Shown here: positions 19,893-57,428 of the stretch, piece by piece
Layout of the letters: each line of letters starts with the position of its first letter
Numbering within the stretch: position 1 is the stretch's first letter
Origin: Mesostigma viride
Taxonomy: Eukaryota; Streptophyta; Mesostigmatophyceae; Mesostigmatales; Mesostigmataceae
Length of the DNA: 64,000 nt
NCBI GenBank assembly: GCA_009746045.1
Contig: RPFO01000312.1
Coordinates: forward strand, 1,633,639 to 1,697,638
Direction: 5' to 3'
Made by a program: the position numbers and the translations under genes
Notes under the pieces: generated by a model
Told to the model about the DNA's origin: nothing
Seen by the model: only the letters and a program-made list of their open reading frames with translations
Databases searched by the model: none

Positions 19893-20588
19893 AGTTAACG
19901 CCAAGCGCATTGACGTGTACCTGATTCGGCATATCTCTGCGATTCCAGCGGCACCGGAACGAGTTCATTCCGACAAGTATCAAGAAAGTTATGGCGTTCC
20001 GACTTCCCGGTCGCGCGCGAGCGCGAGCCGGCTGTTCGTCTAAGTCGGACGTGAATATTTGCCGACGACATATGGGGTCGACAGTAATTCCTGGGCTGAC
20101 AGGAATTAGGTGCTGAACCTACGACGGTATTGGATTAATACGTCGTACGCAGGAAATAGGAACCTTAACCTGTGGTATGTTGGTACCGCAGGCTTAGTCC
20201 TGGACTTCTAGGTGCAGATGCAATAGTCACTGTGGACTGTGCTCTGTGGTCACTGTGCCTGTATGGCAGACCTACTGTATAGGAACTGGGCGCTGTACAG
20301 GTAGTTAATACTGTACCGGGAGTGTTATTACTGAGCAGGCCTTCTAGGCTGCTCAGGGCTAGCAAGCACAGTGCACAAGTATATAAAGAATAGGCCAGTG
20401 CCAATTGGGCATCTCTTGCGTGCCCGCCTCACGTGTGTTGCCTTGACTTGGCAAACTCGTGTACAAGCCTCAAGTGTGTGAGCGCTGTAACATTATCCAA
20501 TTTTAACAAAGCTCCGTTTCCAACCATATTCACACATTGCTGCATTGCAACCATATCCTACACATTGCGTTTCATAAAAACGTTAACT
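19893..20588 (+). repeat. 5' LTR of element B
   Basis: 696 bp with inverted ends AGTTAAC...GTTAACT, not TG...CA. TATATAAAG at about 20380 is a good TATA box. It is the source of a short false ORF on the minus strand. Confidence 0.95.
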
Positions 20589-20598
20589 CAAATTACAA
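20589..20598 (+). promoter_or_regulatory. Element B post-LTR site (primer-binding position)
   Basis: The ten bases after the 5' LTR, CAAATTACAA, are the exact reverse complement of TTGTAATTTG at 36183-36192 in the 3' UTR of B. The site occupies the normal primer-binding position but does not begin with TGG, as a site for a tRNA 3' end would. Confidence 0.6.
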
Positions 20599-20681
20599 GC
20601 AGTCTCGACGGAACGGCCAGGAGGGTCGTTGCTGTTTGCTGCGTGCAGCGTTGACGACGCGAGAAGCTCGTCAGGTGTCGA

Positions 20682-21604
20682 ATGGTGCAGGAAGAACAAC
20701 GGCAGCAGAATTTCCGGTTTCGGCAGTCTGCTGGTGGTTCAATTTCGCCTGAATTGCGTCGTGTGGTTCGAGATTTATCTTTATTGCTTGCAGATCGTCC
20801 ACCTGTTAATCGCAACTTCGTGCAATTCGTCGACGACCAGGTCGAGGATTGGGAGCGAATTCTGCAGCACGTCCGAACCATCGTCATTCCGGAGCACCGG
20901 AGCATCGACGACATCGAGCAAGAGCTTCACGGTTTGGTCGGTATCCAGACTGTGATTACAGCATTAGCTGAGCGGGTGCGTGCGGAGTTGGCGGCTATAG
21001 GCGAGGAGAGGCTGCGGAGACAGCTGGTGCAGTGCGACACGAGTTCGTACCGGCAGCAGCGGGTGCGGGTGTACAACGTACGTTCGCAGGCGTAATCGGC
21101 AACGAGGGTGTTGCAGCGGGACCAGTTCGACGTGAGCGACGCGGGGCGGAGCGTTACAGGCGGCTTGCAGAGGTCGAGGCGGCTGCGGAAGCCATCACCG
21201 GAGGACAGCGTGCGGCACGAGTCGGCAGGATTCCGGAGCGAGCAAGGGTTCCTTTTCAGGAACTGCCCCAACCCCTTCGCGTTCGTGTGACGCGTTGGGA
21301 AGAGTTCGCCCCTCTTGGTTACGACAGTGACCTTGAGGTGGGAGCTGCGGGGGTCGCTGGTCTAGGCGACGAGGCGCTTGGCGACCACGAGGTGCCAAGA
21401 TACAATCCGAGGGGTGTTAACGACGGGTTGTCACCTGTCTACTACACTAACGGTGACGACTCTGTCATCGCGGGCCGACAGCGGGTCGACGACGGCGCAG
21501 CGGGTAGCAGGGTGCCAGAGCTGATCGTTGTGAGCGACAGCGACAGTGACAGCGACAAGGAGAACCAGGAAGCGCCTGCGGGTGACCGTGGTGGTCTTGA
21601 CTGA
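20682..21604 (+). pseudogene. Element B ORF1, upstream of gag, unknown function
   Basis: Two overlapping frames (20682-21095 and 21032-21604) were probably one ORF of about 300 residues before a frameshift. The first part is helical (SPELRRVVRDLSLLLADRPP, EDWERILQHVRTIVIPEHRS, IDDIEQELHGLVG); the end is acidic, SDSDSDSDKENQE. It lies where A1 has its 401-residue ORF, and both end just before gag. No domain recognised. The acidic tail and helices suggest a protein-interaction role, an inference. Confidence 0.6.
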
Positions 21605-21710
21605 GTGGTAACACTTGGCATTTTCCTTTCTTGTTCAGTAGCTTATATTGCTTTAATTGCTGCTTGGCCACTTGGCTGGCTGTTACTAGCAGATCTGAAC
21701 AGAGGCCATC

Positions 21711-24147: not shown

Positions 24148-25672
24148 GCTGCTGGTGGCAGTGGACAGATATACCAAGTACAAGACCCTAGAGATCCTGC
24201 CTGACATGGAGAAGCCTACATTAATTGCTGCTCTGAAGTTGACAAGGAGCAGGTACCCTGGGTTGGAGTTGTTGCAGTGTGACATTCAGTTTGAGTGCTG
24301 TGAGAACCTGCCAGAGTTTCCAGAGTTGCTGATTACACCCAGGGAGAGCCACGGCCAGCAAGGGGTGGTGGAGAGAGCCATCCAAGAGATCAAGACTGTG
24401 CTGCTGGTGGAGAGGATTCCAAGGACGTCATCTGCCATTGTGACATCTGCATGGCTACGTTCTGTGGAGGATAGGCTGAACCTCAGGACTCCCATGTTCT
24501 TTGGTGACATTGCCATCAATCCTCTTATGCTGCACACCAGGATGCTGCCAGCTGATGCTGAGCAGGCATGGAAGGAGAAGCTAGAGGCCAAGTTCCTCAA
24601 GCTGAGGCAGAAAGACAAGGGCTGGAGTGTCCTAGAACCTAACGTTGGACAACAGGTTGTTGTGCGGAAGGAGCCAAGCTTTCCAGGGAAACGTGGCAGC
24701 TGGCATGATGGGGTGGTGACCCGAGTAGAAGCCGCTGGCCATAAGTGCTGGGTGGCCATTGATGGCTCCCAAGCAGTGCACCGTCTGTCCTGGTCAAAGA
24801 TCCGTCCCCGGGGAGGTAATCAAGGAGACCTCTTCCAGGTGCCCGTTGGTGTACAAGGCGGGGGTGACGTGGAGCTTCCTGATCAGGGTGCTACAGCTGT
24901 ATCGAGCCCTCAGGGTGACCCTGGCCCGGCCCCTGGGGTACCTTCACATACGGTGGTTGGGCAAGCAGGCGGACAGGCTGCACCTCCGGAACGGCCCGAC
25001 ACCAGGCCTAGGGGTGTGCGTCTATCAGATATTGTACAGGCTTTGCAAAGAGCCAAGAAGGAGCCTAAGGTGTCCAAGCTTGTCCAGTTGGATGAACCTA
25101 AGGTAGCTGCCATGGAGATAGATACCAATGCACAGGTTTCTGTCATGGGACCTCAGCATACAGGAGAACTGCTGGTCGGAGAACCAAGTTGCCCCTGGGT
25201 GTCTGATTTCAGTGGTAGGACGCATCTAAGGGTGTTGGGAGAGGTTACTGCCCCTGTCATGGGTGTGGATGTGACCTTCCTTGTCCTAGAGGACTATGAT
25301 GGCCCTGTGATTTTGGGTCAGAATTTTCTGGGCAATCCTGGGATTTCTATCAGAGCTACAGCTCTGAGAAGAGATGGCTGGGGGATGATTCCCCTAGAAA
25401 ATTTCAGGACAACATTTCCAGTCAGGTGCAGGGCCAAGCCGGTCAAGGGTGTAAAATGGGATGAAGGGGAGGTGCCCCCAGCAGCCAGTTTGGTGATTCC
25501 AGCTGTGTTGCACCCCAGCAGTATTGGCATAACTCACAGGAGCCTTGCTGCACACTCTCCTTTGACATATGACCAGCTAGTCCAAGAGATGAGCTCGCCT
25601 ACTTTGTTTGAGGCTTGGAAGCTCGCCTTCTCCAAGGCATTGGAGGAGTGGTTGCAGTTTGAATGTAGTTAG
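24148..25672 (+). CDS. Element B integrase core, integrase C-terminus and protease
   Basis: An open frame of 519 codons from ATG 24113, whose first 12 codons come from the solo LTR. Numbered from that Met: integrase acids D18 (VAVDRY), D57 (QCDIQF) and E87 (GVVERA); SH3-like tail with RKEPSFPGKRGSWHDG (185-200); linker; retropepsin-like DTN at 337-339 (MEIDTNAQVSVM), then VILGQNFL at about 399-406. The protease is therefore C-terminal to the integrase in one polypeptide. A1's insertion at 25667 ends the frame; FEC-AAPTDR resumes at 34155. Confidence 0.85.
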
Positions 25673-26311
25673 AAAGAGCTCCCAACGTATGTGAGCTCTT
25701 GATCTTTCACAGCGCGTCTTAGCCAATGTTGCAAGGCAGCAACCTTAAATCTGTTCACCAGGCCACGACCACAATGGGCACTTCCACGACCAAGGTGGCA
25801 CCCACGGTTCGTGCTTTCCGAGATATAGCTGGTCATCCCCCATGACCAAGCTATATCCTTGCGTTGTTCCTCGTTCCCATCGGTGTGACGAGGCACGTGC
25901 AGGCGTGCAAGCAAATCCTCAACGTCCACTGGCATCAGTGCAGAGCCAGGACGAACTGGATTTGCCTAGACTCTGCAACCTAGGAAGTACAGGACCTGTC
26001 ACAAGCCTGCAAGGCCTAGTATCCTTGCAGACCTGTGCCAGCTCCAGTATTCCACCAGTCACAGGCTGCTGCTCCTCTGATCTACGTGGACCACAGTCAC
26101 GTGATAATCAGGCTAAGCCTGTGCAGGCACGGCCTGCCACGTGTCCTGTCCACTATGCCAGAGGACTGCACCCTAGTCGGCCACGGATGGCTAGGACTTC
26201 GGGACTTGATATCTTTCTCGTCCCTTGTCTGTTTCAGGCGGTCAGCACGGCGTTGGAAAGGTCTTTCCAAACTGCATCCACTTAGCATATTGGTTGCCCA
26301 AAATGCTAACT
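25667..26311 (-). repeat. 3' LTR of A1
   Basis: 645 bp with ends AGTTAG...CTAACT. In sense direction it is preceded by a purine-rich tract (minus strand of 26312-26329, AAAAGAAGAAAGGGTTGG), the plus-strand primer. Confidence 0.95.
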
Positions 26312-27322
26312 CCAACCCTTTCTTCTTTTGGAGCTGGACCAGCTTGAAACAAGCCTAACCTTGCTTGTGCCCACTCAGCCACAGACCGCTTGGTCCCTTG
26401 GGGTTGATCAGACCTGATAGGGCCCAGGGTCCTGCCTCCTTTTGGGAAACAACATATACGCCCTTGGACCAGGCTAGGTGTACTGGCCAGTGAATCAGAG
26501 GTCACCCCAGGTTATCCCCTGACCCCTTGGTCAGCTCCCAACCTTTCCTTGGGAACTTGGTGTTAGATTAAAGTCAAGGCACATTACCTAGTCCAATGGC
26601 TGGGATTAAAGGATGCCAAGAACGTATTATTGTGAGTTCCTGATCTTTCACAGTTATCACAGGCGCCCGTTCTTATGGCGCCCGCCTTGGCCAGCCTTTC
26701 CCTTTTATGCTCAAAGAGACTCAGGTAGCACCTACACAAATACTGCCTTATTGGGGAGCCCATGTCTTCACTGGGTGTTAAGCCCAGGAATCACTCATGC
26801 CAGGCTGTGGCTCTGCTGGGGAATTGAACCCCACCCCAACCTCCAGGTTTATAGATGACCTGGAACTTCACACAAGAGAAACATTACAACCATGAGAACA
26901 ACATGAGAATGACATGACATGTTATGTTTTATTCAAGCAATATATAACCCAGAATGTGGCTCCCTGGCAACCATGTTCCACATGGTCACACAACCAGGTT
27001 CTTTATTAGCAACAGGTTGGAAACAAGCACTAGAAAACATATATACAGCAACCTGTAAGAACCAGCATTCGGGTTGCCCTTGCATGGCCTAACTGTTTGA
27101 GGCCAAAGGCGTCGACTTAAGTCCTGGCGACTCTTCTGAACCCCATGGGGAGGGCCAGGCATGATTCTCAGCTGGTAGGAGTGACATTCCACACCAACTC
27201 CTGTCCAGGAGGGTGTACCTAACCCTGAAGGACCGGCTGTCAACCAGTAAGCACCAGTCACCACTTGGTACTTTGGTCAAGCAGCCCACTGGGGACACCC
27301 AAGCTGAAGCAAGGCCTGGTCT
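26312..27322 (-). other. A1 3' UTR with T-arm-like hairpin, complement site and PPT
   Basis: In sense direction a hairpin with TGGGGTTCAATTCCCCA (26833-26817) has a 5-bp stem and the 7-base loop of a tRNA T-arm (pol III B-box GGTTCAATTCC). About 200 bases on, GGAACTCA-CAATAATACG (to 26623) carries the complement of the post-LTR site. The polypurine tract at 26329-26312 adjoins the LTR. No ORF. Confidence 0.7.
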
Positions 27323-32298: not shown

Positions 32299-33504
32299 TC
32301 AAGCACTGGCGTCGCTGGGGGATGCCGTGGGCACCGTCCCAGCTACTGACTCAGCACCTGCTTGGTTCGCTGCCTCCAGCTCTCGCTCTTGAGCAGTGGC
32401 TGCGATGGGCGTCTCTGGCCGCTCCTCGTCGCTGCCAGCGGCGTCCTCCCCGTCGGCGTAGGGTCCAAACACTCTGCTAACGGGTCGCCCGTCTGCAGAC
32501 TTCTCCACTGGGATCCGGGGCTCGCTCCCACTCGAGCGATCCCACTCAAGGTTCCTCACCCACCGCGTTCCACCACCCCGCTTGTCGTTGCAAGCCCCAC
32601 GACCACCGTAGTCGTGTTCGGGCTCTTGCGGGACGTGCAGCTCAGCACGACGTCGTGCAGCGTACCCTTCTGTGGTACCGTCGCCTTGATCTATCTGCTG
32701 AGATGAACGTTCGATGATCCCCTCTGGCTGATCAACGAATTGGTAATGGAAGTCTTCTGGCGTTACCTCCCGACCCGTGATGACCTCGACCACTGGATCG
32801 TGTGCGTCTGGTTCCGCCGCCCGCGGTGTGTCGAGTGTTGACCAAATCCCAAATGGTCGTGTGGTTATCACCCACCGGTCTGCGTTGCCCCGTGACTCCT
32901 GCAAAAGAATGTTCACGAGGTGTTCGCACGTTTGTGAAACCACCTCTGCCGACGACCAGGGGTTGTCGACTTCGCGCGCCTGCGCTTGCCTGATCACGTC
33001 CGGGACTTCAACTCCCGCGCCCAGCACAGACGTTGCCACCTGATGGTTGAACAGTCGCGCTGCTCCCAGTCCAATGGCCACGATCTGGCCCAGTGCCTCC
33101 CGCGCCAAATCCAGCTGCGACACGGTCACGTGCCCGCCCTGGTGAGCCACCTCCAGACCGTAAATGGTCGAGGACAGCTCGTCCCGTATTGACACAAACT
33201 TTTCGACGGCCTCTCGCGACAATTCGCCGGGAGCTGTCGAAGCCTCAATCTGCATCACAATGGGGTCGCTCGCCGCCGGCCCTGCTGCAGTTCCGCAAAC
33301 TGCTACCCAACCTTTCTTCGCCAGCCCCCTTGCCAGGTACGCCGCCTGGACGAAGGTTGATGCGGTGCTCGGATGAGCGTAGGGATGAAAAGGTCGTGAT
33401 CGCTCCGGGGCTCCTACCCGAAGCTGCGGCTGCGAGCTCTGGCTTTGCGAAGGCTCAATGGCCTGTTCCCTCGGCACGTTGGACATGAAGAAGTAAGGAG
33501 ACAA
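32299..33504 (-). CDS. A1 ORF1, upstream of gag, unknown function
   Basis: 401 residues from a Met 8 bases after the 5' LTR; MSNVPREQAIEPSQ a few codons later is an alternative start. A helical middle (SREAVEKFVSIRDELSSTIY, DLAREALGQIVAIGLGAARL, SSAEVVSQTCEHLVNILLQE) precedes a charged C-terminus with ELHVPQEPEHDYGG and an acidic tail. No known domain. B has a diverged equivalent; C has a short Cys-rich ORF there instead. A separate ORF before gag is unusual for copia-related elements. Confidence 0.65.
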   Translation of the reverse strand: MSPYFFMSNVPREQAIEPSQSQSSQPQLRVGAPERSRPFHPYAHPSTASTFVQAAYLARGLAKKGWVAVCGTAAGPAASDPIVMQIEASTAPGELSREAVEKFVSIRDELSSTIYGLEVAHQGGHVTVSQLDLAREALGQIVAIGLGAARLFNHQVATSVLGAGVEVPDVIRQAQAREVDNPWSSAEVVSQTCEHLVNILLQESRGNADRWVITTRPFGIWSTLDTPRAAEPDAHDPVVEVITGREVTPEDFHYQFVDQPEGIIERSSQQIDQGDGTTEGYAARRRAELHVPQEPEHDYGGRGACNDKRGGGTRWVRNLEWDRSSGSEPRIPVEKSADGRPVSRVFGPYADGEDAAGSDEERPETPIAATAQERELEAANQAGAESVAGTVPTASPSDASA

Positions 33505-33511
33505 TAATACG
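33502..33511 (-). promoter_or_regulatory. A1 post-LTR site (primer-binding position)
   Basis: The sense sequence CGTATTATTG follows the 5' LTR directly. Its exact reverse complement CAATAATACG is in the 3' UTR (minus strand, 26632-26623). C has the same pair. Confidence 0.6.
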
Positions 33512-34154
33512 AGTTAGAAAGAGCTCCCAACGTATGTGAGCTCTTGATCTTTCACAGCGCGTCTTAGCCAATGTTGCAAGGCAGCAACCTTAAATCTGTT
33601 CACCAGGCCACGACCACAATGGGCACTTCCACGACCAAGGTGGCACCCACGGTTCGTGCTTTCCGAGATAGCTGGTCATCCCCCATGACCAAGCTATATC
33701 CTTGCGTTGTTCCTCGTTCCCATCGGTGTGACGAGGCACGTGCAGGCGTGCAAGCAAATCCTCAACGTCCACTGGCATCAGTGCAGAGCCAGGACGAACT
33801 GGATTTGCCTAGACTCTGCAACCTAGGAAGTACAGGACCTGTCACAAGCCTGCAAGGCCTAGTATCCTTGCAGACCTGTGCCAGCTCCAGTATTCCACCA
33901 GTCACAGGCTGCTGCTCCTCTGATCTACGTGGACCACAGTCACGTGATAATCAGGCTAAGCCTGTGCAGGCACGGCCTGCCACGTGTCCTGTCCACTATG
34001 CCAGAGGACTGCACCCTAGTCGGCCACGGATGGCTAGGACTTCGGGACTTGATATCTTTCTCGTCCCTTGTCTGTTTCAGGCGGTCAGCACGGCGTTGGA
34101 AAGGTCTTTCCAAACTGCGTCCACTTAGCATATTGGTTGCCCAAAATGCTAACT
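33512..34154 (-). repeat. 5' LTR of A1
   Basis: 643 bp, nearly identical to 25667-26311. Its U5-side end contains GATCAAGAGCTCACA, a motif that recurs slightly altered in the 3' UTR. Confidence 0.95.
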
Positions 34155-35616: not shown

Positions 35617-36363
35617 AAGCTGAGAGCTGGGTGCTTAAGTCTCTGGATATCAGGCTGGGAGCTTGATTGTACATAATCCTGAGCACACCTTGAGGGGTGA
35701 GACATGTCTCTGGTTTGGGAATGTCTGACATTGTCTCTGATGGAGAGATGTCTATCTGGGGTTTTCATCTCAGTCTGAGGTTTCCCCAGATCTGTGGTTT
35801 GTGGGCGGGGTTCGATTCCCTGGTGCCGTCTTAAGGCGGAGTTTCACGGACTGGCTGACCCATCCACCATGCTGGTGAGGTGGCGACAGGTCCCCTGATT
35901 TTCCACGGTTGGAATGAGTATAGGAGCTTGTGTTTTGCATGTGCTTCGCGTAGATGTTGTGTCTGGTTCGATAAGGGGCAGCAGACCGGCGCCGACTCCC
36001 GTCTGGGGGTCAGCAATGTTTTCTGATGAGCTGTTGTGGGTGATCTGTGGGGTTTCGCCTAAGGTCCTGAAGGTTGTACATACTTCTCAAGTTCTTAGCT
36101 GAACACCTATGGGCTGCCACAGTTGGCCAACCTCTTGTACATGGGTAACACAACGAGCCTCCCGTGAAGGGATAGGGACTCATTGTAATTTGTTTGTGCT
36201 CCTGAACCAGTATGGGTGCTATGTACATATAATAAGGAATCCAAGCTGACTGTCATGCCCAGCGGGTTGTGACTTGTAGTCGGGGAGGATGTCCAGTACC
36301 CATTGTGTGTGTTTGTATGTAGACTTGTGTGAGCTGCTACAGCTCAAGAAAAGAAAGGATTGG
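35617..36363 (+). other. Element B 3' UTR with T-arm-like hairpin, complement site and PPT
   Basis: CGGGGTTCGATTCCCTG at 35806-35822 is a T-arm/B-box-like hairpin (GGTTCGATTCC). GTGAAGGGATAGGGACTCA followed by TTGTAATTTG (36183-36192) aligns with the equivalent A/C segment GGAACTCA plus its own complement site. The polypurine tract AAGAAAAGAAAGGATTGG is at 36346-36363. Confidence 0.7.
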
Positions 36364-37062
36364 AGTTAACGCCAAGCGCATTGGCGTGTACCTGATTCGG
36401 CATATCTCTGCGATTCCAGCGGCACCGGAACGAGTTCATTCCGACAAGTATCAAGAAAGTTATGGCGTTCCGACTTCCCGGTCGCGCGCGAGCGCGAGCC
36501 GGCTGTTCGTCTACTAAGTCGGACGTGAATATTTGCCGACGACATATGGGGTCGACAGTAATTCCTGGGCTGACAGGAATTAGGTGCTGAACCTACGACG
36601 GTATTGGATTAATACGTCGTACGCAGGAAATAGGAACCTTAACCTGTGGTATGTTGGTACCGCAGGCTTAGTCCTGGACTTCTAGGTGCAGATGCAATAG
36701 TCACTGTGGACTGTGCTCTGTGGTCACTGTGCCTGTATGGCAGACCTACTGTATAGGAACTGGGCGCTGTACAGGTAGTTAATACTGTACCGGGAGTGTT
36801 ATTACTGAGCAGGCCTTCTAGGCTGCTCAGGGCTAGCAAGCACAGTGCACAAGTATATAAAGAATAGGCCAGTGCCAATTGGGCATCTCTTGCGTGCCCG
36901 CCTCACGTGTGTTGCCTTGACTTGGCAAACTCGTGTACAAGCCTCAAGTGTGTGAGCGCTGTAACATTATCCAATTTTAACAAAGCTCCGTTTCCAACCA
37001 TATTCACACATTGCTGCATTGCAACCATATCCTACACATTGCGTTTCATAAAAACGTTAACT
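36364..37062 (+). repeat. 3' LTR of element B
   Basis: 699 bp, near-identical to 19893-20588, followed by the duplicated GTTTG at 37063-37067 and then A3 RT sequence. Confidence 0.95.
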
Positions 37063-37301: not shown

Positions 37302-37966
37302 ATTTAGCGACCCCGGCCAGGCAGCTGCTGTGAGCTCCTGGTCCTTGTCGCAACTGTTAGGACCTAGGTCGCGTAGCTTGCAACCTTTGCTCCTCGCCCC
37401 AGGTAACGCTCTCGCTGGCTTGCTCACTCCAAGTGACAACCACGGTGCGTCGGCAAAGAACTGCCTTGACCTGCCTTAGGCCATAGCTTTATGTTACCTC
37501 ATTTCCATCGTGCCCTAAGGCATCTCCCGTCGGCCTCGCACAGTGCACCGCTACCTTGCCAGAGCTCAGCTTACCGCTACCTTGCATCCTCGCTGCAGGC
37601 AGCGTTAAGGACCTCTGACATCCCGTGACTAGGTATCACCAGTTCCTGTCACAGCTCTGCACGGATGCGTATCCTTGCAGAGCCCGCGACTGGCCTACTG
37701 GTCTCTACTTAGCCACAGGACCGTTGCGTCCTCAGCCTCCGTGGACCTTAGTCACGTGATGGTCCAGGCTAAGCCTGTGCAGGCCCTGCCTGCCACGTGT
37801 CCTGTCCACGGCGACCTCGGTGTGCACTGCCACCGCCGCCGGTCGGCAGTACTTCGGGACCTGATAACTCTCACGTCCCTTGTCTGTTTCAGGCGGTCAG
37901 TACGGCGTTAGAAAGGTCTCCTCATCCTGCATCCAACTAGCACATTGGCGTCCCAATATGCTAACT
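37302..37966 (-). repeat. 3' LTR of element C
   Basis: 665 bp. In sense direction a purine tract (minus strand of 37967-37984, ending AAGAAAGGGTTGG) precedes it, the same PPT as in A. Confidence 0.95.
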
Positions 37967-38912
37967 CCAACCCTTTCTTGTTTTGGAGGCTGGACCAGCC
38001 TGAGATTCCAATCAGCCATGCTCACTCATGCCACAGACTCCCTGACCTCTCCCAGAGGCCAGGGCTGCCCTTCTTTTGGAACTTGAGGTTTTACCCAAAG
38101 ATTAGTCCAGAGCCAACATTGGTTCCAAGGCCCACCCCTGACCCAGATGTCAGCCCCCAACCCTTTCTTTTGGGAACCTGGTTGAGGAGAAAAGTGAGGT
38201 CTCTACATCCAGGCAGCTGAACTTGGACAGAGGAAGTTATGATACGTATTATTGTGAGTTCCTGGTCCTTTCCAGTTATCACAGGCGCCCGTATCAGAGG
38301 CGCCCGCTCACAACCATTCCCCTTCCTTTTCATTCAACAGACACGGATAGAGCCCAGTTAATGCTTGCCAAGCTGGGGAGCCCATGTCCTCACTGAGGGA
38401 TAAACTCAGGATTCACACATGCCAGGCTGTGGTCAGCTGGGGAATCGAACCCCACCCCATATCCTCCAGGTTTGGAACAGCTCCTGGAACTGTACATTAC
38501 AAACAAACATGAAATGGAGATAACACGATTATGACTTATTAATATAGAGAGAATAACCCATAATGAGGCTCCCTGGCAACCACGTCCAACATGGTCACAC
38601 AACCAGGGATTTTATTAGCATGCAACAGGTTGGTTACAGAGAATATAAACAAATGTACAGCAACCTGTAAGAGCCAACATTTGGGCTGCCCTTTCAGGGT
38701 CCATTCCATGAAGACCCAAGGCCGGTTACAAGGTCCTTAAGACCCTTCTGCAACCCCATGACAGGGCCAGGCGATATTCTCAGCCAGGGGAGTGACTCCA
38801 CCCTGACCCCTGTTCAGCAGGGTGTACGAACCCTGAAGAACCTGCTGTCAGCCATTTCTGGCTACCCAGCCCACCGGGACACATCCCACCTCAGAGCAAG
38901 GCGTTGGTCTCC
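37967..38912 (-). other. Element C 3' UTR with T-arm-like hairpin and complement site
   Basis: TGGGGTTCGATTCCCCA (minus strand, 38454-38438) is a perfect 5-bp stem with loop TTCGATT, that is, a tRNA T-arm and pol III B-box. An upstream hairpin TCCAGG...CCTGGA adds an anticodon-arm-like stem. CAATAATACG (38254-38245) complements the post-LTR site at 55132-55123. Confidence 0.7.
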
Positions 38913-40159: not shown

Positions 40160-40686
40160 ATGGACTCGGAGGTAGTTTAGATAGAGAGCGAGACGACGAT
40201 CCTTTGCAACATACGTCATTGAATCAACCCTTCCGCGGCTGGGAAAAAGAAGACGACACGTACTTGACAGGTAATGGGCGGGTCGCCGTCAAGCTAGGAG
40301 GATAGTGCTGCCTGATTCAGGACACGCCCTGCCTAGACGTTAGACCTGCTCGAAGCGGAAAATCCTTTCGTATATAGCTCCTGCTCCTCGTCTTGTTTCC
40401 TTAGAAAGATGGTTTACTGCCGTAGACAGTTGCTGGTTTTGGTTCGACGATAGAGAGACGGCTAGCGTCTCGTAGATTACCCTTTTTCTGCATCGTGCCT
40501 GCTTCGTATTTAGACGACCCTTCGCCGGACGCAGAATTCTTGAAACCGGATACTTACGACCACCTGGCGCTGGAAACATCGTCCCTACGTGCGTCGTCAA
40601 TCTGGTTCGGTTTCAGACACCCGAGATAAGTCGCCTTCTCCTCGTTCTCCTCATTTGACTGCTCAAGACCTACCAGGTGCGTTACC
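40160..40686 (+). other. Leader of G
   Basis: Untranslated leader between the LTR and the first ORF. GGAGGTAGTTTAG, CTTGACAGGTAATGGGCGGG and the following bases are shared with the minus-strand leader of G2 (59160-59386), suggesting conserved RNA packaging or priming signals. Confidence 0.6.
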
Positions 40687-41077
40687 ATGAGCCAACGGCG
40701 ATCTTTTACTGCTCCTTCCCATTCTTCTAGCGATAATAGTCTAGCTAAATATTACGTAGTGATTACGCCTCAATGGTCCTCCATTTTCCTTTCTTGGTCC
40801 GACGCTAGGAAGATCGTTCAGAATCGTGTATAACGTAATTAGGTATAAGAAATTTATGTCCTTTGAAGAAGCTCAGCAGTTCCTTATAGATCATAGCCAA
40901 ACAGATTTAGGCCTGCATGTACGCCCTATTCCTCATGGTCGCCCTCCAGTAGAAGCTCTAGTCTTTGCTACCCCTCCTTCTTCTCCCCCTAAACGGGCTG
41001 CATCTGCATCTGCTTCAGATACTCCTCTCACTTTGGAGTTTGGTTCCCTATCCATTACTGTTGTTAAAAAGGATTGA
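40687..41077 (+). CDS. RNase H1 N-terminal (hybrid-binding/viroplasmin-like) ORF upstream of gag in G
   Basis: Frame 40687-40833 gives AKYYVVITPQWSSIFLSWSD and ends NRV-stop. The overlapping frame from 40826 gives NVIRYKKFMSFEEAQQFLID, then a Pro/Ser-rich tail to 41077. Together, YYVV...SW-D-A...YKKF-S-EEA-FL is the pattern of the small RNA:DNA-hybrid-binding domain of eukaryotic RNase H1. A +1 change of frame near 40826-40833 is needed, by recoding, a short intron or a mutation. The domain is rare in Ty3/gypsy elements, and its place before gag suggests a separate accessory protein. Confidence 0.6.
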
Positions 41078-41170
41078 TTTTAATTTTGTTCCTGCTGCAG
41101 ACCTTCAAGGTTTTTCCTTTTTCTTTTGTTGCTTTCTTCTTTTGATTCCTATTCCTTTACGTAATTAAAG

Positions 41171-42922: not shown

Positions 42923-43511
42923 CCTGGACAGGTCCTTAGATAGTACCCCAGATAATAATTTTTGCTTGCCTGTTTTTATAACCTCTGTAGGAGCTGAATC
43001 ATCCCTACCACTACGTGTGCGTCCTCTTATGTTCTTGAATGGTGGCTTAACCGTCCCTCATACTGTTGTAGACCCCTTCCTGCATGCTGATGAACTCTTG
43101 AATGTCTCTGTGTTAGTGGATAGCGGTGCGGCTAGCTCCTTTGTGAGCGAGGCCCTAGTTAGGCGTTTAGGACTAGTCCCTACCCCTCACACAAAAACTG
43201 TCACTGTCCATTATGCTGACGGTCGCACCAGTCATTCCCCGGGTACGGTGTCCCTTCCCCTGGTCATACAAGGACGTACGGTCAACCTGACGGCCACTAT
43301 AGGCCCTATCACTACAGCTGATGTATTACTAGGATTAGATTGGCATCAGGATAATAAAATCACTATTAATTATGATACTATGGTCATTTGGTTTCCAGAT
43401 AGCTCCTACTGGGTACCAGAACGTCATTATAGATTAGAAAATTTATCCTTGGTAGATATTACTCCTCCTACACCTGTTGATCCTCCTGTAGACCTATACC
43501 TGAAGTATTAA
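42753..43511 (+). CDS. G aspartic protease
   Basis: Retropepsin core VSVLVDSGAASSFVSEALVR with the canonical DSGA, followed by VLLGLDWHQDNKITINYD (LLGxDW flap end). The frame is +1 relative to gag, overlaps its end, and stops at TAA 43509-43511. An ATG overlaps that stop (TAATG), but its frame closes after 22 codons. How pol is then expressed is unclear. Confidence 0.9.
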   Translation: MLCRQDPQGSPMIIRLPHPLQSLVTLQQWLFRQGLLRGSFLWIWGGGGTVGLSAGGNLDRSLDSTPDNNFCLPVFITSVGAESSLPLRVRPLMFLNGGLTVPHTVVDPFLHADELLNVSVLVDSGAASSFVSEALVRRLGLVPTPHTKTVTVHYADGRTSHSPGTVSLPLVIQGRTVNLTATIGPITTADVLLGLDWHQDNKITINYDTMVIWFPDSSYWVPERHYRLENLSLVDITPPTPVDPPVDLYLKY

Positions 43512-43563
43512 TGTCCAATGACGAATTACGTTCTGAACTAAAGAATATGGATACCTATTATGT

Positions 43564-46500: not shown

Positions 46501-47034
46501 TACCATAGGGCGCAGGCCAAATACCTTGCTAGGTTGCGTGCCTCATTAGATAGAAGAGCACCTGAGATAGAAATAGGAGATTTAGTCTTAGTAGAAGGCC
46601 CCCGTGTTGGCCGCTTCGCTCATAAGTTCGAAGCTGAACTGAAAGTGAAACTTAGGCCCGCCTTCTTAGGACCTTTCCGTGTGTTGTCTAGAGTAGGTAA
46701 TTTTCTGTATGAGATAGATATTCCTACCTCTTGGCAGACCCACTCTCGCACCTTTCATAGAAGCCAGCTGAAGCTCTATCATCAGAGCACGTTCGCTGGT
46801 AGAGAATTGGCCCCTGCCCCTTTAGAGCATAACCCGGATACTGGTGAGGTAGAGGATGAGGTAGAGGGTATCGTGGCCCATAGAGATATCAAAAAAGGCC
46901 GCGGTACCCAGCGCCAGTATAAGGTGAAGTGGATGTATGCTCGTAGTGAGGTAGATAAGGTCTGGTATACTGAGAGTGAGCTAGATGGGTGTAGTCGCCT
47001 GCTGCAGGAGTATAAAACCCTGCATAAGCTCTAG
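43564..47034 (+). CDS. G Pol: RT, RNase H, integrase, chromodomain
   Basis: 1156 residues, uninterrupted. RT: KPNGKFRLVTDYRKLN (119-134), first Asp D164 (TVLDCADGFW), YLDD 252-255. About 30 residues (roughly 221-250, Ser-rich) separate NEVLRPVMG from the YLDD block and look like an insertion. RNase H: VVATDASKVAIGGVLLQDQG, QQELLAVVY, QTDHRPL. Integrase: H-H-C-C finger (HDLAAHQGG...CQSCQEMKP), FVDRFTRM, ISDKDKLFTS and HLVERLN as DDE. C-terminal chromodomain: GIVAHRDIKKGRGTQRQYKV then KWMYARSEVDKVWYTESEL. The chromodomain places it among chromoviruses and would guide insertion to marked chromatin. Confidence 0.97.
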   Translation: MFLQLEVQEIPITNNSVDIDVNTVDTIGVGFTENEIVRYMAVIDSSKVFEEKTPSYPPPRSVLHRVVIKDGAVPTHSPMYRMGPTELKELKQILVSLLEAGLIEPSNSPYSAGVLLVPKPNGKFRLVTDYRKLNDITVKSKYPLPRIDDIFNKVKGSTCFTVLDCADGFWQLRIAPEDCHKTAFATPFGHYQFRVAAMGLCNSPASFQMLMNEVLRPVMGNSHLPQVSSDLKDPSFSSVSLSEHDRSCAQAYLDDILIYSPDFETHLRDLKKVLEIMAENSLWARRAKVRSGRSVPFLGHVLSDAGVATDPDKTKSIQEWPTPTDVKGVRSFLGIASYYRRFIPRFATIAAPINHLLKKDIPFVWSSECQSAFQCLKSLLLSPPVLILPDTTKPFVVATDASKVAIGGVLLQDQGQGLQPIEYISRTMLPAERNYPVHQQELLAVVYCCHAWQHFLKGAQFDVCLNEPCEIDPYRLVIQTDHRPLTHLLSQPNLTPRQARWMEFLAQFSPFKLQYVKGVDNIVPDALSRRADYSFFEDLDVLNTTLVPTTMGVTPYGELPDDESYAYLFHTAVRMPDLLSHVGLSLPCEALPVVSVGGEGKNKISIPLSHIATRSGKSYEHIVPLGPPLLFGKAVGDLFKPVLDTSVAMPTSDLERLISRFTATEPEALAAIAAHPQQLGKHPCKFVGGFLYVQIADSPPQWRLYVPPICRSSLLFELHDLAAHQGGKRVRDLVARSYYWPSLLKDVDEYVRTCQSCQEMKPNNVGQIAEPRTLPDPIMPWDSIMMDFVGPFRKNDRGNAQILVFVDRFTRMCHLVPCPLELTARDCARLYLNNVYRYHGLSRQFISDKDKLFTSDFWQQFFAAIGTKVTFGTAYHSSSSHLVERLNRVVEEALRHYVNGSGSDWEDYLCLVEFSLNNCPQAAHGYTPFFLDTGRQPLTPTSLLASPLRDKDDVSRDTVEGVQALLDKMKNAHDNAIAGYHRAQAKYLARLRASLDRRAPEIEIGDLVLVEGPRVGRFAHKFEAELKVKLRPAFLGPFRVLSRVGNFLYEIDIPTSWQTHSRTFHRSQLKLYHQSTFAGRELAPAPLEHNPDTGEVEDEVEGIVAHRDIKKGRGTQRQYKVKWMYARSEVDKVWYTESELDGCSRLLQEYKTLHKL

Positions 47035-47229
47035 TTGTAGACCTTCTCCTCTCTTATGTTATGTCTGCTGTCGACGGATGGTTGGTTGTCCCCTCCCCTC
47101 CGCAGCCGTCATGTCAGAGCCTACCCCTCCGGCTGAGAGCTCGCTGCCGTCCCCGCCCCCACCGGACCCTGAGCTGTATTTCGAGGCCCTTCCGGGCCGC
47201 TGGGTGTCGCGATCAGTTACCCGGGTGGC

Positions 47230-48225
47230 GTGGTGCAGCCGGCCCTTCAGGCCCAACATGCGGGCTTAGTCAGGGCGGCCCTCTTCGGGGTCACGTGGTA
47301 TGGTCCTTCCCCTGATGAGCCGCACCAGCTTGTCCTGCACGGGTTCGATGATGCCGGACACTGTTTGTTGGGGTGTGGTTCCAGCTGTCCCGCCTTGGGG
47401 CAGATAGATGCGGTTCTCCGGTGTTGCCGTGTGTTCTCCTACCTCTCCACTCCTGTGGGCCGTACCTGCCTACGGGAGGTGTTCCCGTGGCTTCCAGCTG
47501 AGGGTGATGCTGAGGTAGACGAGAACCCCTGCGACCTTTTACGGGCCGTAGAGTTCATGGAGATAGCTGATCAGTCGGCGGGACTAGCGGTTAGTGGTCC
47601 TACCCCTTCGGGCGCCCCAGCCGAGGTACATTATACTCCAGATTATTCTGCCTCGAGCGCTGCGTCCGCCTCCTCGGCGTCTGTTCCTCCCTCTCCGGTC
47701 CCGTCGTCCCCTCGGTCGACCCGGGATGTCGCAGTGGAGCCTACCCCTTCGGGTTTGCCTGATCCTCTTTCGGCGACGGTCTCGGCTATGCAGGCTCAGA
47801 TCCAGTCTTTGACCACGGCGTTTGGGGCCTTCCTTGCGGCCCAGGCGCAGGTCCCGGCCACGCCGGCTGGATCCGCGCCCCCTACCCCTTCTGTCGCCCC
47901 GGCGACTACGGCTTCGCCCGCGCCCCCGCCTGCGCCCGCGGTCGCTGTGGTTCCGGCGGCTCCTGCGACTCCTGCTGCCTCTGCGCCTGTTACCGCTGTA
48001 CCTGCGCCTACGCGGGAGTCTCCTGCCCCTGTTAGCTCGCCCTCCGTCGCTGCTTCCGAGCCTCCTCCCGCTCAGGCGCAGACGTCGCGGGGCTTCTTTG
48101 GCGATACTAGCGGGCTTCCCAGACTTTGGGAGGGTGGTCCTCCGCAGAGGATTCCGGTTCCTGACTGGGCCTGGATGGTAGTCAATCTTATGCAGGACTG
48201 CCTGTCCCTACGGGCCCCATTTTAA
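47230..48225 (+). CDS. G accessory ORF X after pol, unknown
   Basis: 331 residues between pol and the 3' LTR. The N-terminal 100 residues are complex (FDDAGHCLLGCGSSCPALGQ, LREVFPWLPAEGDAEVDENP). A long Pro/Ala/Ser stretch follows, with a short helical segment SATVSAMQAQIQSLTTAFGA, and a C-terminus RIPVPDWAWMVVNLMQDCLS. The frame is open upstream from about 47050. No signal peptide or membrane anchor as in an envelope protein is evident. The open frame in a young element supports function. Confidence 0.6.
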   Translation: MVQPALQAQHAGLVRAALFGVTWYGPSPDEPHQLVLHGFDDAGHCLLGCGSSCPALGQIDAVLRCCRVFSYLSTPVGRTCLREVFPWLPAEGDAEVDENPCDLLRAVEFMEIADQSAGLAVSGPTPSGAPAEVHYTPDYSASSAASASSASVPPSPVPSSPRSTRDVAVEPTPSGLPDPLSATVSAMQAQIQSLTTAFGAFLAAQAQVPATPAGSAPPTPSVAPATTASPAPPPAPAVAVVPAAPATPAASAPVTAVPAPTRESPAPVSSPSVAASEPPPAQAQTSRGFFGDTSGLPRLWEGGPPQRIPVPDWAWMVVNLMQDCLSLRAPF

Positions 48226-48333
48226 CATGTGGCCTGAGGGTGCACCGGCAACGGAGACCGGCGCGCCTGCGTCGTTGGCGGGTCCGTCACGGCCCCTCTG
48301 GCTTCAGGTCCGGCGCGACCTCCTGTTTTACCA

Positions 48334-49323
48334 GTGCCCCCTGCGTCGGTGTCGGCTCCTGCCCCTGCGTCAGCCCCTGCTCCGGTCCCTCCTCCTTCGG
48401 CCTCGCGGTCTTTGGCCGCGGTTGTTCGGTCCACCGGTCAGGATCCTCGCGCCACCCGCGCTGCCGATTCCCTCAGGGAGTTGTCCCAGGGTGATCGGGA
48501 CAGGGCTCCTTCTGTGGTGCACGCGACGCCGGAGTCGCGTGACACGCCCATTCCGGGGTATGGTATGTCCGCACTCGCCTGCCGACAGTGTGACCTGCCG
48601 CGCGCCTCTGCTGAGCTTGCCATCTCTCCCATGTCCTATGGGTTCTCCCAGGTGTGTCGGGCGCCCCGGGATCGTGGCCTACCCATTGAGACTGATCGGC
48701 CTCCGTTCGACATGGTTATTTTAGCTGATCCGGTGTTCGAGGGTGAGATCCTGGTCCGGCGCGTCCTGTATCGCTGGGCGAGGCGCCACAACGATTTAGA
48801 CACCTACGGTGGGTTTCAGTGGGCTTACCCTCCCCCTCTGGGCATTATGGCTTCGGATGCCCTTACAGTAGAGTTTCCTGCGGTGCCGGGTGCGGCGTAC
48901 ACTACGGTCCTCCAGCCCATCCTTGAGTGGGATGCCCGCCGCCCGGCGCCTATCCCGGGCCAGGGTCTAGACTCCCGCGGTCACCCTCCTCCTCGTGCCA
49001 GCGACTACCTAGAGACATTCGGGTCGCGACAGTGTGTTCGTCGGTGGCGCTCCCGCGAGGTTCGGCACATCCGGTTGTGGCCGTCCAACGTGGAGCCCCT
49101 GGTGGACCTGTTCTTCCCGACGGGTATGCGCCCTCGGATTCGGTATCATCGCCTCCTCCTGCGGGCCCTTTGCCTGATCGCGGTAGAGCCTTTCCTTCGC
49201 CTCTTTGCCTGTGGCTTTCTGGACTGGGCCCGTGGCCAGGTCGTCCTCACGCAGCATAGGTATTACTGGGCCTTCCTGGGCCTCTTTCCTGACGGCGTGT
49301 GGGCCGATGTTTTCCTCACGTAG
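48334..49323 (+). CDS. G accessory ORF Y after pol, unknown
   Basis: 329 residues. A Pro/Ala/Ser start continues the composition of ORF X, so the two could be one protein separated by a frame change near 48225-48334. The rest is globular: ESRDTPIPGYGMSALACRQC, DRPPFDMVILADPVFEGEIL, VRRVLYRWARRHNDLDTYGG, RHIRLWPSNVEPLVDLFFPT, YYWAFLGLFPDGVWADVF. No family recognised. Small hydrophobic stretches (LLLRALCLIAVEPFLRLFAC) could be a buried helix or a membrane segment. Confidence 0.6.
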   Translation: MPPASVSAPAPASAPAPVPPPSASRSLAAVVRSTGQDPRATRAADSLRELSQGDRDRAPSVVHATPESRDTPIPGYGMSALACRQCDLPRASAELAISPMSYGFSQVCRAPRDRGLPIETDRPPFDMVILADPVFEGEILVRRVLYRWARRHNDLDTYGGFQWAYPPPLGIMASDALTVEFPAVPGAAYTTVLQPILEWDARRPAPIPGQGLDSRGHPPPRASDYLETFGSRQCVRRWRSREVRHIRLWPSNVEPLVDLFFPTGMRPRIRYHRLLLRALCLIAVEPFLRLFACGFLDWARGQVVLTQHRYYWAFLGLFPDGVWADVFLT

Positions 49324-49794
49324 ATAGGCATGACAATGTTGAGGATGTGGCTCACTACCAGGCCTACCTGGAGGTCCTGCTGGCCTCTCGTGGCACTTAT
49401 CAGACGGATGGCCACTAGATAGAGGGCCTTAGGCCCGACCTGAGGGTGTTGTCCCTCCGGTATGTAGAGTCGCCCTCATATTCTGGCCAGTTGGTTGGCT
49501 GTTCTTGGTCCTTAGCGCTGATGTGTTTACTCTGTGTGTCCTGCCCAGTGCCGTCCCCCCCGGCCAGGACTCCGTTCCAGGCAGTTAGGGGAACCTACCA
49601 CCAGGCTTGGTGCTGGCTAACCCTACATCACCCGGCGTGGTGGTGGAGACCGTGTGAACTATTGGTGCTTTGTATCTGGGATGGTCTATCGATGGTGTTG
49701 GTATGTGTTGGGTGCGTTAGGATTATTTTCCTACCCCTTTGGTTCCCCCTCTCTGCGTAGGGAGAGGGCTCCCTACCTTTTGTGGGGGGGGAGG
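49324..49794 (+). other. G 3' UTR and PPT
   Basis: No substantial ORF. It ends with GTGGGGGGGGAGG directly before the 3' LTR, the plus-strand primer. Confidence 0.75.
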
Positions 49795-50365
49795 TGTTAC
49801 GTCGCGTAACAATTCGTTGTAGTTACGGACGTAAATTAGGTCCTTGGCCTCGGTTGTTCCTAGGTTACGTGCAGTTCTAGTTTGGACATGATTGTCCCCG
49901 TAACAGTACTGTGGTATAGTGGGTGCCTTTGGGCGCCGCGCCGCGTACTATATTAGTGGTCCTTATCCTTTTGTAGAATGTAGTGGACAGGCGTGCATCT
50001 GTGCACCTGCTTGTGTTTCTGTGTTTCTGCAGGCGAGGGCCAGGTCGGCCCGAGCCTGTTGGACCGTTGGTGACCATTTATGCACGTTCCACTCCTTGTG
50101 TGGTCACTCGGCGTGTGTTAAATGAATTAACACATATTAGCTTGGGTCACGGCAGTTTAGTTGTGTTTCCTTCCTCTTTTCCTGGAGTAAACGGGTTTGA
50201 TTAAATGGTCTATGGCATATTACAGTAGTACATATGTAAATGCATTGAGATCTGGTTCGTCTCGGTCGTCTTTCGCTAGGGGTGTATATAGAAGCAGCCT
50301 CACTAGTTTAGGTAGTATCAGGACAGGTAGAGGTAGAGGTGGCGGCCGAGGCTTGCGGCGTAACA
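49795..50365 (+). repeat. 3' LTR of G
   Basis: 571 bp, apparently identical to the 5' LTR. The polypurine tract GTGGGGGGGGAGG lies immediately before it (about 49782-49794). Confidence 0.95.
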
Positions 50366-54246: not shown

Positions 54247-54350
54247 TTATGGACACAGATACAAGGTGGCAGCAATGAAAGCAACGCCCGGACCGAAGAG
54301 ACGTAGGCCGAACTGATCCTGCAAGCAGAGGAACTAGCCCCAACACCGGC

Positions 54351-54800: not shown

Positions 54801-55132
54801 GGGTTGTCTCGCTTGCCGCTTTCACTACCGCTAGCGTCACCAAAGCCCCTTCGCCATAGCTTTAACTAGCCACGACGCGAGCAAACACCTGGCGCCACCT
54901 AGCGACATCACAGCAACTTCGCCCAAGAAAGTCCCGAGCACGTAGCAAGACCACCAAACCCGTCAATCTGGCCGTCTCGACATCATATTATAACACTGTC
55001 TCCGCCCTGCCGAGCACCGAGGAAAACAACCGCCTGCAGCCTAGCTCGCCTGGCGTCATTGCTTCTCGTGCCTGTCGCAGAGCAAAACCACTGCTCCCGG
55101 AGCTCTTCACAAAAACCCGGAACAATAATACG
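54801..55132 (-). other. Element C 5' leader
   Basis: Between the 5' LTR and the Cys-rich ORF. No coding evidence beyond short frames. It begins in sense direction with CGTATTATTG, the site complementary to the 3' UTR. Confidence 0.5.
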
Positions 55133-55801
55133 ATTTAGCGACCCCGGCCATGCAGGCAGCTGCTGTGAGCTCCTGGTCCTTGTCGCAACTGTTAGGACCT
55201 AGGTCGCGTAGCTTGCAACCTTTGCTCCTCGCCCCAGGTAACGCTCTCGCTGGCTTGCTCACTCCAAGTGACAACCACGGTGCGTCCGCAAAGAACTGCC
55301 TTGACCTGCCTTAGGCCATAGCTTTATGTTACCTCATTTCCATCGTGCCCTAAGGCATCTCCCGTCGGCCTCGCACAGTGCACCGCTACCTTGCCAGAGC
55401 TCAGCTTACCGCTACCTTGCATCCTCGCTGCAGGCAGCGTTAAGGACCTCTGACATCCCGTGACTAGGTATCACCAGTTCCTGTCACAGCTCTGCACGGA
55501 TGCGTATCCTTGCAGAGCCCGCGACTGGCCTACTGGTCTCTACTTAGCCACAGGACCGTTGCGTCCTCAGCCTCCGTGGACCTTAGTCACGTGATGGTCC
55601 AGGCTAAGCCTGTGCAGGCCCTGCCTGCCACGTGTCCTGTCCACGGCGACCTCGGTGTGCACTGCCACCGCCGCCGGTCGGCAGTACTTCGGGACCTGAT
55701 AACTCTCACATCCCTTGTCTGTTTCAGGCGGTCAGTACGGCGTTAGAAAGGTCTCCTCATCCTGCATCCAACTAGCACATCGGCGTCCCAATATGCTAAC
55801 T
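55133..55801 (-). repeat. 5' LTR of element C
   Basis: 669 bp, about five differences from the 3' LTR. The sense sequence right after it is CGTATTATTG (55132-55123), identical to A1. Confidence 0.95.
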
Positions 55802-56414
55802 ATTGAGTCGACTTACTGATTCCCAGCTAGTTGAAGTGGGTGCTGAGAGTGTGGTGCAGGCTGTCATGATGTCTCCCCCTCTTATACTGGGTCCTGTGGA
55901 TTTGTACAAGCCCCTTGACATGATCCTCTATGTGGACAGTTCTATGGACAATAGATAGGAAGGTCACAGAGGTCAGGGGCAGGGCAGCAGCATTAGTTAC
56001 CCTGGAGCAAGATCACACCTCACTTGTTACCTGGTACAGTCGGTTGCAGAACAGGGTTACACCCAGCAGTGATATTGCTGTCAGAGTGCAGGGCAATCTG
56101 TGAAGGGCTGCATACTGCTCTTTACTTGAGGGAGCTCTTCTACCAGCTATGTCAAGTGGCTTCCTGTAGGTTGCAGCTGCACACACTGGTGAGGACTGAT
56201 AGCAATGGGCATGGTGCAATTTGTGCACAGGCAGCTGGCCAGGAGCAGGGACCTTGACTACTTGTTGCTCAAGGAGATGTCCTACCTAGCTCACATTGAA
56301 CATGTGCCTGGTGTGGATAACCCTGCAGATGCCCTCACCAAGCTGGAGGAGAAGGCGGAGCGGCGGTACCCCCTGCTCCGTGGGCTCATGGACCCCTTAC
56401 ACGGGCGGCCATAG
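55802..56414 (+). pseudogene. A3 RNase H
   Basis: Resumes after C with SRLTDSQLVEVGAESVVQAV and LYVDSSMDN, then small indels through the SSDIAEC block, and finally MGMVQFVHRQLARSRDLDYL and GVDNPADALTKLEEK to the stop at 56414. It completes the A3 coding region begun at 5199. Confidence 0.9.
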
Positions 56415-57428
56415 AGACCAGGCCTTGCTTCAGCTTGGGTGTCCCCAGTGGGCTGTTTGACCATGCAAAGTACCAAGTGGTGACTGGTGCTTACATGGTT
56501 GACAGCCGGTCCTTCAGGGTTAGGTACACCCTCCTGGACAGGAGTTGGTGTGGAATGCACTCCTACCAGCTGAGAATAATGCCTGGCCCTCCCCATGGGG
56601 TTCAGAAGAGTCGCCAGGACTTAAGTCGACGCCTTTGGCCTCAAACAGTTATGTAGGCCATGCAACCCGAATGCTGGTTCTTACAGGTTGCTGTACATAT
56701 GTTTTCTAGTGCTTGTTTCAACCTGTTGCTAATAAAGAACCTGGTTGTGTGACCATGTAGGACATGGTTGCCAGGGAGCCACATTCTGGGTTATATAATG
56801 CTTGAATAAAACATAATCATGTCCTTCTCATGTTGTTCACATGGTTGTGATGTTTGTCTTGTGCAAAGTTCCAGGTCACCTATAAACCTGGAGATTGGGG
56901 TGGGGTTCAATTCCCCAGCAAAGCCACAGCCTGGCATGAGTGATTCCGGTGGGCTTAACCCCCAGTGAAGACATGGGCTCCCCACTAAGGCAGTATTCGC
57001 ATGGGAGCTACCTGAGTCTCTTTGAGCATAAAAGGGAAAGGCTGGCCAAGGCGGGCGCCATAAGAACGGGCGCCTGTGATAACTGTGAAAGATCAGGAAC
57101 TCACAATAGTACGTTCTTGGCATCCTTTAATCCCAGCCCTTGGACTAGGTAATGTGCCTTGACTTTAATCTAGCACCAAGTTCCCAAGGAAAGGTTGGGA
57201 GCTGACCAAGGGGTCAGGGGATAACCTGGGGTGACCTCTGATTCACTGGCCAGTACACCTAGTCTGGTCCAAGGGCATATATGTTGTTACCCAAAAGGAG
57301 GCAGGACCCTGGGCCCTAGCAGGTCTGATCAAACCCAAGGGACCAAGTGATCTGTGGCTGAGTGCATGGGCACAAGCAAGGTTAGGCTTGTTTCAAGCTG
57401 GTCCAGCTCCAAAAGAAGAAAGGGTTGG
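56415..57428 (+). other. A3 3' UTR with T-arm-like hairpin, complement site and PPT
   Basis: TCCAGGT...ACCTGGA hairpin, then TGGGGTTCAATTCCCCA at 56901-56917 (T-arm/B-box-like). GATCAGGAACTCA-CAATAGTACG ends at 57113, one change from the A1 complement site and still pairable by a G-U. PPT AAAAGAAGAAAGGGTTGG at 57411-57428. Confidence 0.7.

Follow-up and report, generated by a model that had tools for sequence, protein, structure and literature searches.

Copia-like retroelements of the streptophyte alga Mesostigma viride carry, at the position of the primer-binding site (PBS), a sequence that is complementary to a ten-base box in their own 3' untranslated region (3' UTR), and the two partners change together from family to family. 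The elements lie in a 64,000-base stretch of contig RPFO01000312.1 (54.5% G+C; hereafter the window), and further copies were taken from the assembly of the same genome (440 Mb), the only genome covered. At the level of sequence, covariation of PBS and box is established within this genome. We hypothesize, and consider the chances about even, that reverse transcription of these elements is primed by RNA from their own 3' UTR.

Three nested copia-like elements with ends proven by target-site duplications (TSDs) were identified in the window: A1 (minus strand), B (plus strand) and C (minus strand). A1 is inserted in B, and both B and C are inserted in an older A-type element, the 3' end of which is here called A3. 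The TSDs are 5 bp each and fix the ends of the long terminal repeats (LTRs): AATGT for A1 (34155-34159 and 25662-25666), GTTTG for B (19888-19892 and 37063-37067) and ATTGA for C (55802-55806 and 37297-37301). The 5' LTRs extend over 33512..34154 in A1 (minus, AGTTAGCA...TTCTAACT), 19893..20588 in B (plus, AGTTAACG...CGTTAACT) and 55133..55801 in C (minus, AGTTAGCA...CGCTAAAT), and the 3' LTRs over 25667..26311 (A1, minus), 36364..37062 (B, plus) and 37302..37966 (C, minus). Their termini are of the form AGTTAG/AGTTAA...CTAACT/TTAACT/CTAAAT, not TG...CA.

The ten bases that follow the 5' LTR are CGTATTATTG in A1 (33502..33511, minus) and C (55123..55132, minus) and CAAATTACAA in B (20589..20598, plus). 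In each element they are the exact reverse complement of the 3' UTR box, which is CAATAATACG in A1 (26623..26632, minus) and C (38245..38254, minus) and TTGTAATTTG in B (36183..36192, plus). Because the TSDs fix the LTR ends, the pairing can be said to begin at base +1 in all three elements. The box is located 171-311 nt upstream of the 3' LTR, and the bases before the paired stretch are GGAACTCA in A and C and GGGACTCA in B. These sites, boxes and preceding bases had been described in a first-pass annotation of the window, and their letters and positions were found to be exact on recheck. The same annotation ascribed to A3 a single change that keeps a G-U pair. The changed box was indeed observed in A3 (CAATAGTACG, 57104..57113, plus, upstream of a 3' LTR at 57429..58085, plus), but the 5' end of this element lies outside the window, in which no match to that part of A1 was found, and the G-U pair is thus one with the site of A1 and not with its own.

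The absence of TGG from the site, also claimed earlier, was confirmed in the located copies of six families, in which the post-LTR sequence starts with CGT... or CAA... and never with TGG. A chromovirus-type gypsy element nested inside C (39589-50365, TSD CTTGG by eye) served as a control. Its post-LTR bases, ATGGACTCGG, are of the ordinary TGG type (ATGG); its first 20 bases have no internal complement longer than 8 bp, and that one lies away from the TGG.

The 10-mers of A1, C and B had no other occurrence on either strand of the 64 kb. When the first 20 post-LTR bases were compared with the searched element, the longest Watson-Crick complement was the 3' UTR box (11, 11 and 10 bp in A1, C and B, respectively). 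The observed Watson-Crick length against the first 15 bases was reached by 0, 1 and 7 of 2000 dinucleotide-shuffled 3' UTRs of A1, C and B, and 3' UTRs simulated with a first-order model contained the exact 10-mer in 1 (A), 0 (C), 21 (B), 1 (E) and 3 (F) of 20000 cases, families E and F being described below.

The complementarity was followed through further copies. A search for A (40 scored places of 857 candidates) yielded 30 loci, A1 included, and the box was CAATAATACG in 29 of these; only the locus L031 has CAATAGTACG. Sixteen stretches were taken for the 5' ends of A copies, two of which were without an LTR end, and CGTATTATTG followed the LTR end in all of the other 14. For B, the box TTGTAATTTG was present in 30/30 loci (from the best 103 scored of 7194 candidates), and six of ten 5' ends tried could be located, all with CAAATTACAA; the base that follows is G or C while the ten are invariant. 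Five of ten C copies tried were located at the 5' end and all five carry CGTATTATTG; their 3' boxes fall within stretches at a displayed match of 100% (four with the top score, one with 521 versus 526 bits).

Two more families turned up in sequence neighbouring A loci. Family E (L009, L032; one copy) has the box CAATAGTACG, and the site after its LTR end GCAAAT is CGTACTATTG. In family F (L011, L034) the box is CTGTAATACG, and the PBS CGTATTACAG was predicted from it before the 5' end had been seen. A search seeded with the LTR end of F, in which 40 of 292 candidates were scored, gave 11 LTR pairs spaced ~7.5 kb apart. Ten of these were read at both ends, and all ten carry ...CATCTAAAT directly followed by CGTATTACAG, together with the box CTGTAATACG, as predicted. 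The G-variant box in an A-like context was found at 165 places (control, 0). When 20 of these were probed 6.9 kb upstream, seven showed an LTR/PBS border and 13 did not, the latter being uninformative. At six of the seven borders a different LTR end (CTGYTCGCTAACT) precedes the compensated site CGTACTATTG, and these copies are treated as family G. A-type LTR ends followed by CGTACTATTG were found at six places. The two-sided change in further copies that the first-pass annotation had proposed to look for is therefore present in E (one copy), F (10/10) and G (6/7 borders).

Taken together, the six families have four distinct pairs of box and PBS: one in A and C, one in E and G, one in F and one in B. 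Own partners pair at 10/10 positions by Watson-Crick pairing in A, C, E, F and B, and cross pairs of different kind do so at 4-9/10. Swapping partners of different kind weakens the calculated duplex energy in all combinations except that of the A/C PBS with the E box, which is equal through a G-U pair. Both sides have changed at 6/10 positions among A, C, E, F and B; F and B have common letters at PBS positions 8 and 9. A and C have the same box and PBS, as have E and G, so that these pairs are not independent, which speaks for common ancestry of two unlinked 10-mers without function. Nevertheless, we give such an origin, or chance, next to no probability, considering the shuffles and simulations, the changes on both sides and the prediction for F that held in every copy. 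Chance was rejected on the shuffle and simulation counts and is refuted as far as sequence allows.

The box is embedded in a predicted RNA structure. A fold common to A1, A3, C and E consists of an outer stem (P1, 9 pairs), a hairpin with a repeated GGCGCC (P2) and a hairpin of the form UGUGA-UAA-CUG...CAG-GAAC-UCACA (P3). Of the ten box bases in these elements, the first two form the end of P3, six are predicted to be unpaired and the last two belong to P1. The box is a joining strand of this predicted three-way junction, with its covarying outer stem, in A, C, E and F; the module, as delimited by predicted folds and pair counts, covers 26616..26691 in A1 (minus) and 38236..38313 in C (minus). 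In an alignment of A1, A3, C, E and F, from which B was left out, 97.4% of the cells are paired (reached by 0/500 shuffles), and changes on both sides were found in 7 pairs (reached by 2/500) and 11 cells (0/500), although the structure was derived from the same sequences, which favours it in the shuffle control. Sliding the partner along the alignment lowered the pairing to 33-46%. Six of the seven covarying pairs belong to P1. The seventh is the P3 pair that involves box position 2, which is U-A in A1, A3, C and E and A-U in F; as the PBS has changed there as well, three places changed together in F. P2 is invariant and therefore uninformative on pairing. In B, the region around the box (36147..36199, plus) comprises a hairpin that ends with GGGACTCA, then the box, then UUUGUG; a related motif (GTGAAGGGATAGGGACTCA, five mismatches versus the A motif) also precedes the box. 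A P1-like pairing of this UUUGUG with an upstream CACAA was seen by eye and is present in neither fold of B.

Further upstream, the 3' UTRs of A1, A3, C, E and B have kept GGGGTTCRATTCCC, which we take to be a canonical tRNA T-arm by the general rules of tRNA structure. The T-arm-like sequences are located at 26819..26832 in A1 (minus, GGGGTTCAATTCCC), 38440..38453 in C (minus, GGGGTTCGATTCCC), 35807..35820 in B (plus, GGGGTTCGATTCCC) and 56902-56915 in A3 (plus), and F shows a compensatory change in the stem (TAGGG..CCCTA). The motif that precedes the box (GAYCARRARCTCA) recurs ~20-35 nt upstream of the LTR end, in the unique 5' (U5) region, in A, C, E and F. Such U5 copies are without the full PBS complement at 33549-33537 (minus; the copy GATCAAGAGCTCA of A1, 33537..33549), 55178-55166 (minus) and 58048-58060 (plus), and likewise in L009 and L011. 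Both the T-arm-like sequence and this repeated motif in U5 would be compatible with a ribonucleoprotein bound to the two RNA ends.

The T-arm-like hairpin also allows for a separate small RNA, made from the 3' UTR or another locus, which would contain the box and act as primer, with the hairpin being part of a promoter or a recognition element for reverse transcriptase. Its conservation in five elements and the compensated stem in F are in line with this, as is a weak resemblance of the B copy to the T-arm of mascRNA (15.1 bits against a gathering score of 42.5, E 9.6). However, no tRNA gene was found in the window, and the window gave no Rfam match at the gathering score; at a relaxed threshold, only weak hits were obtained, at the 3' ends of A1 and B. 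Inspection by eye showed no run of four Ts directly after the box in A or B, and the distance from T-arm to box varies from 199-202 nt in A1, A3 and C to 376 nt in B. We therefore regard a separate small RNA as improbable.

Our favoured explanation is a primer derived from the 3' UTR itself. In LTR elements the 3' end of the primer sets the border between LTR and PBS, so bases +1 to +10 should represent the end of the primer if nothing else defines the LTR end. In every family, the sole sequence found to pair with the PBS was the 3' UTR of the same element, host tRNAs not having been searched. A copy of the 3' UTR RNA, on the same molecule or, more easily, on the second RNA of the particle, would pair its box to the PBS. 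Cleavage immediately 3' of the box, at the base of P1, could be carried out by the RNase H of the element, as in Tf1, or by another nuclease, and the freed 3' end would be extended directly into U5 and the repeat (R) region to give minus-strand strong-stop DNA. The primer RNA would end with ...CAAUAAUACG in A and C or ...UUGUAAUUUG in B, joined to AGTTAG... or AGTTAAC..., and pairing in cis would also close the RNA into a ring and could so aid the first strand transfer. The 10-nt length, the start at +1 and the absence of TGG would all follow from this scheme. An element-encoded primer was one of two mechanisms put forward in the first-pass annotation, and it gains from pairing that occurs at the PBS, flush with the LTR; we infer the primer RNA, its 3' end and the cut 3' of the box from the complementarity. 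The more specific version, in which a dedicated structured RNA domain of the 3' UTR, with three-way junction and T-arm mimic, encodes the primer, and in which primer and PBS evolve as a family-specific lock and key, we give somewhat less than an even chance.

Several observations weigh against this explanation. With G-U pairs counted, two stretches elsewhere in A1 match over a greater length (12 bp), C has other matches of 11 bp and B has another of 10 bp, although none of these begins at base +1. The structural module is not uniform: the single-sequence fold of F is without P1, 2/9 P1 pairs are broken in F and one in C, and the folds of B pair part of the box (UUGU with ACAA). Cleavage within the 3' UTR of the template itself would sever its 3' LTR, so that a second RNA or another source of primer is needed. 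Moreover, two loci combine the G-variant box with an unchanged PBS, leaving a G-U pair: L146, the remaining one of the seven borders, has an A-type LTR end followed by CGTATTATTG, and the same holds for L031, also with an A-type LTR end. Strict priming in cis with rewriting of the PBS is disfavoured for both, since the copied PBS should have C; they may instead have mutated later, recombined or been primed in trans.

These G-U pairs would suit the other mechanism of the first-pass annotation, a pairing between the two ends as in Ty1, in which PBS and box would keep the RNA circular, or link two RNA molecules, in aid of first-strand transfer or packaging, and the primer would be something else that displaces the box or comes after it. 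In Ty1, CYC5 and CYC3 form a perfect 14-nt complementarity between 5' and 3' UTR that promotes reverse transcription (PMC5454406), and in A, C, E, F and B the PBS and the 3' UTR box likewise pair without a mismatch, apart from the G-U pair of the two A-type loci. The six box bases predicted to be unpaired within a structured module (A, A3, C, E) also resemble a kissing site. On the other hand, CYC5 (nt 155-168) is separate from the PBS that binds tRNA-iMet (nt 95-104), whereas here the PBS position itself is paired (PMC5454406). The paired stretch starts at +1 and measures 10-11 nt in each family, and ring closure explains the covariation but not this register. A separate primer would, in addition, have to bind the same ten bases and hence match the box in all four versions. 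Circularisation as in Ty1 is possible as proposed and is the chief rival, but we judge it less likely than an element-encoded primer, because the pairing occupies the PBS directly at the LTR border. Priming by the 3' UTR and circularisation through the PBS may also operate jointly, and sequence cannot separate the two.

Priming by an ordinary host tRNA or half-tRNA, to which the 3' UTR would bear an incidental resemblance, appears very improbable to us. The site lacks TGG, and its four versions all track their own 3' UTR, so that four pieces of tRNA would need to coincide with it. The B box fits no anticodon-loop end by what we take to be the tRNA rules (U33, purine 37), which we counted against a tRNA. 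A match to a tRNA may nonetheless exist, since the host tRNAs were not searched. Among copia groups, Osser, Bryco and others are known to use half-tRNA primers (PMC6317226), which end within the tRNA, so that the PBS has no TGG there either; in the present families, by contrast, each of the four versions of the PBS has its complement in the 3' UTR of the same element. Osser is an algal group.

Three kinds of primer are described for plant LTR elements, namely complete tRNAs, half-tRNAs and self-primers that the 5' LTR releases (PMC6317226). The Tf1/sushi elements (Tf1 and Tj1, with predictions for plant Tcn1 and copia TAR lineages) would resemble the Mesostigma families in that the primer is thought to come from their own RNA and the PBS has no tRNA match. 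The Tf1 primer, however, is the 5' end of the mRNA, cut by RNase H (PMC4600332) and released from the 5' LTR (PMC4600332, PMC6317226), whereas the complement is found here 171-311 nt upstream of the 3' LTR. A Tf1-like primer in the LTR was considered and rejected, as the LTRs of A1, C and B complement the first 20 post-LTR bases over 5-6 bp at best, and nowhere over more than 6 bp. The fungal GalEa elements with their Conserved Hairpin Site are also copia elements without a tRNA-type PBS, in which a hairpin takes the place of the PBS, and their post-LTR bases have a conserved, near-exact reverse complement; the leader contains this partner at a distance of 12-41 bp downstream (PMC5445492), in contrast to the 3' UTR partner kilobases away. 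No complement of this type was found 12-41 bp downstream in A1, C and B, the longest Watson-Crick partner being in the 3' UTR. The dictyostelid Skipper elements are mostly without TGG as well, and no LTR complement was found for them, but they are Ty3/gypsy elements in which a polypyrimidine stretch replaces the PBS, and the portion of the report available to us names no partner (PMC5006619); its authors suspect a novel form of self-priming (PMC5006619). In the open-access literature, as covered by titles and the beginnings of abstracts and excluding subscription papers, we found no PBS described as complementary to the 3' UTR of its element, and nothing that combines Mesostigma, copia and the primer-binding site. 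LTR retroelements make up the largest share of repeats in the Mesostigma genome, 27.9% (PMC6947507), and the accessible sections of that genome paper and of PMC7027972 do not discuss priming.

The reverse transcriptases of A1 and C are 78% identical across 188 amino acids, and that of A1 is 55% identical to the B-type relative P0003 across 395 amino acids. A1 was matched to Pfam RVT_2 with an E-value of 4.1e-5 and 23.7 bits, which is under the Pfam cut-off of 31.6, and a 59% identical relative has a precomputed PF07727 annotation. Among the seven A1 and B reading frames given to Pfam, no integrase domain was matched. In a protein search, the A1 reverse transcriptase fragment was 100% identical, across 64% of its length, to a protein labelled Mesvir1, which makes the unicellular alga M. 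viride the very probable host. The protein searches returned 3 and 7 proteins, from Mesostigma, a Prorocentrum lima data set and unlabelled sources, all without DNA context, which confined the covariation analysis to one genome. Fragments from the Prorocentrum lima data set (P0002, P0010) are 87% and 82% identical to the A1 reverse transcriptase and represent either contamination or a relative in the dinoflagellate. One scan of viral contigs with P0003 as query found no relatives. The 103 scored B places are listed with 99% identity in the reverse transcriptase region, have no stops within the match, and many lie in open frames of ~1196 amino acids. Such near-identical copies with open frames point to recent activity of the B family, as judged from the assembly. 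Elsewhere in the window, ~1.43 kb is present as a tandem duplicate adjoining the older A-type element (16841-19257; blocks 98-100% identical), long tandem arrays of 15- and 21-base units lie within an open reading frame (13531-14672), and an inverted repeat has perfect 121-base arms at a spacing of 280 bases (10546-11067).

Borrowing a tRNA is the usual way of priming, and our results suggest that priming from the 3' UTR would be a new form of self-priming. If true, a PBS that pairs, in family-specific versions, with the 3' UTR of its element would add a fourth arrangement to the tRNA, the half-tRNA and the self-primer from the 5' LTR (PMC6317226), and would indicate where to seek the primers of other elements without a tRNA-type site, such as Skipper and the fungal GalEa elements. 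As the scored copies are numerous, nearly identical and present in a culturable alga, the question is directly testable. The lock-and-key pairs of box and PBS could, if the explanation holds, isolate the families from each other's RNA.

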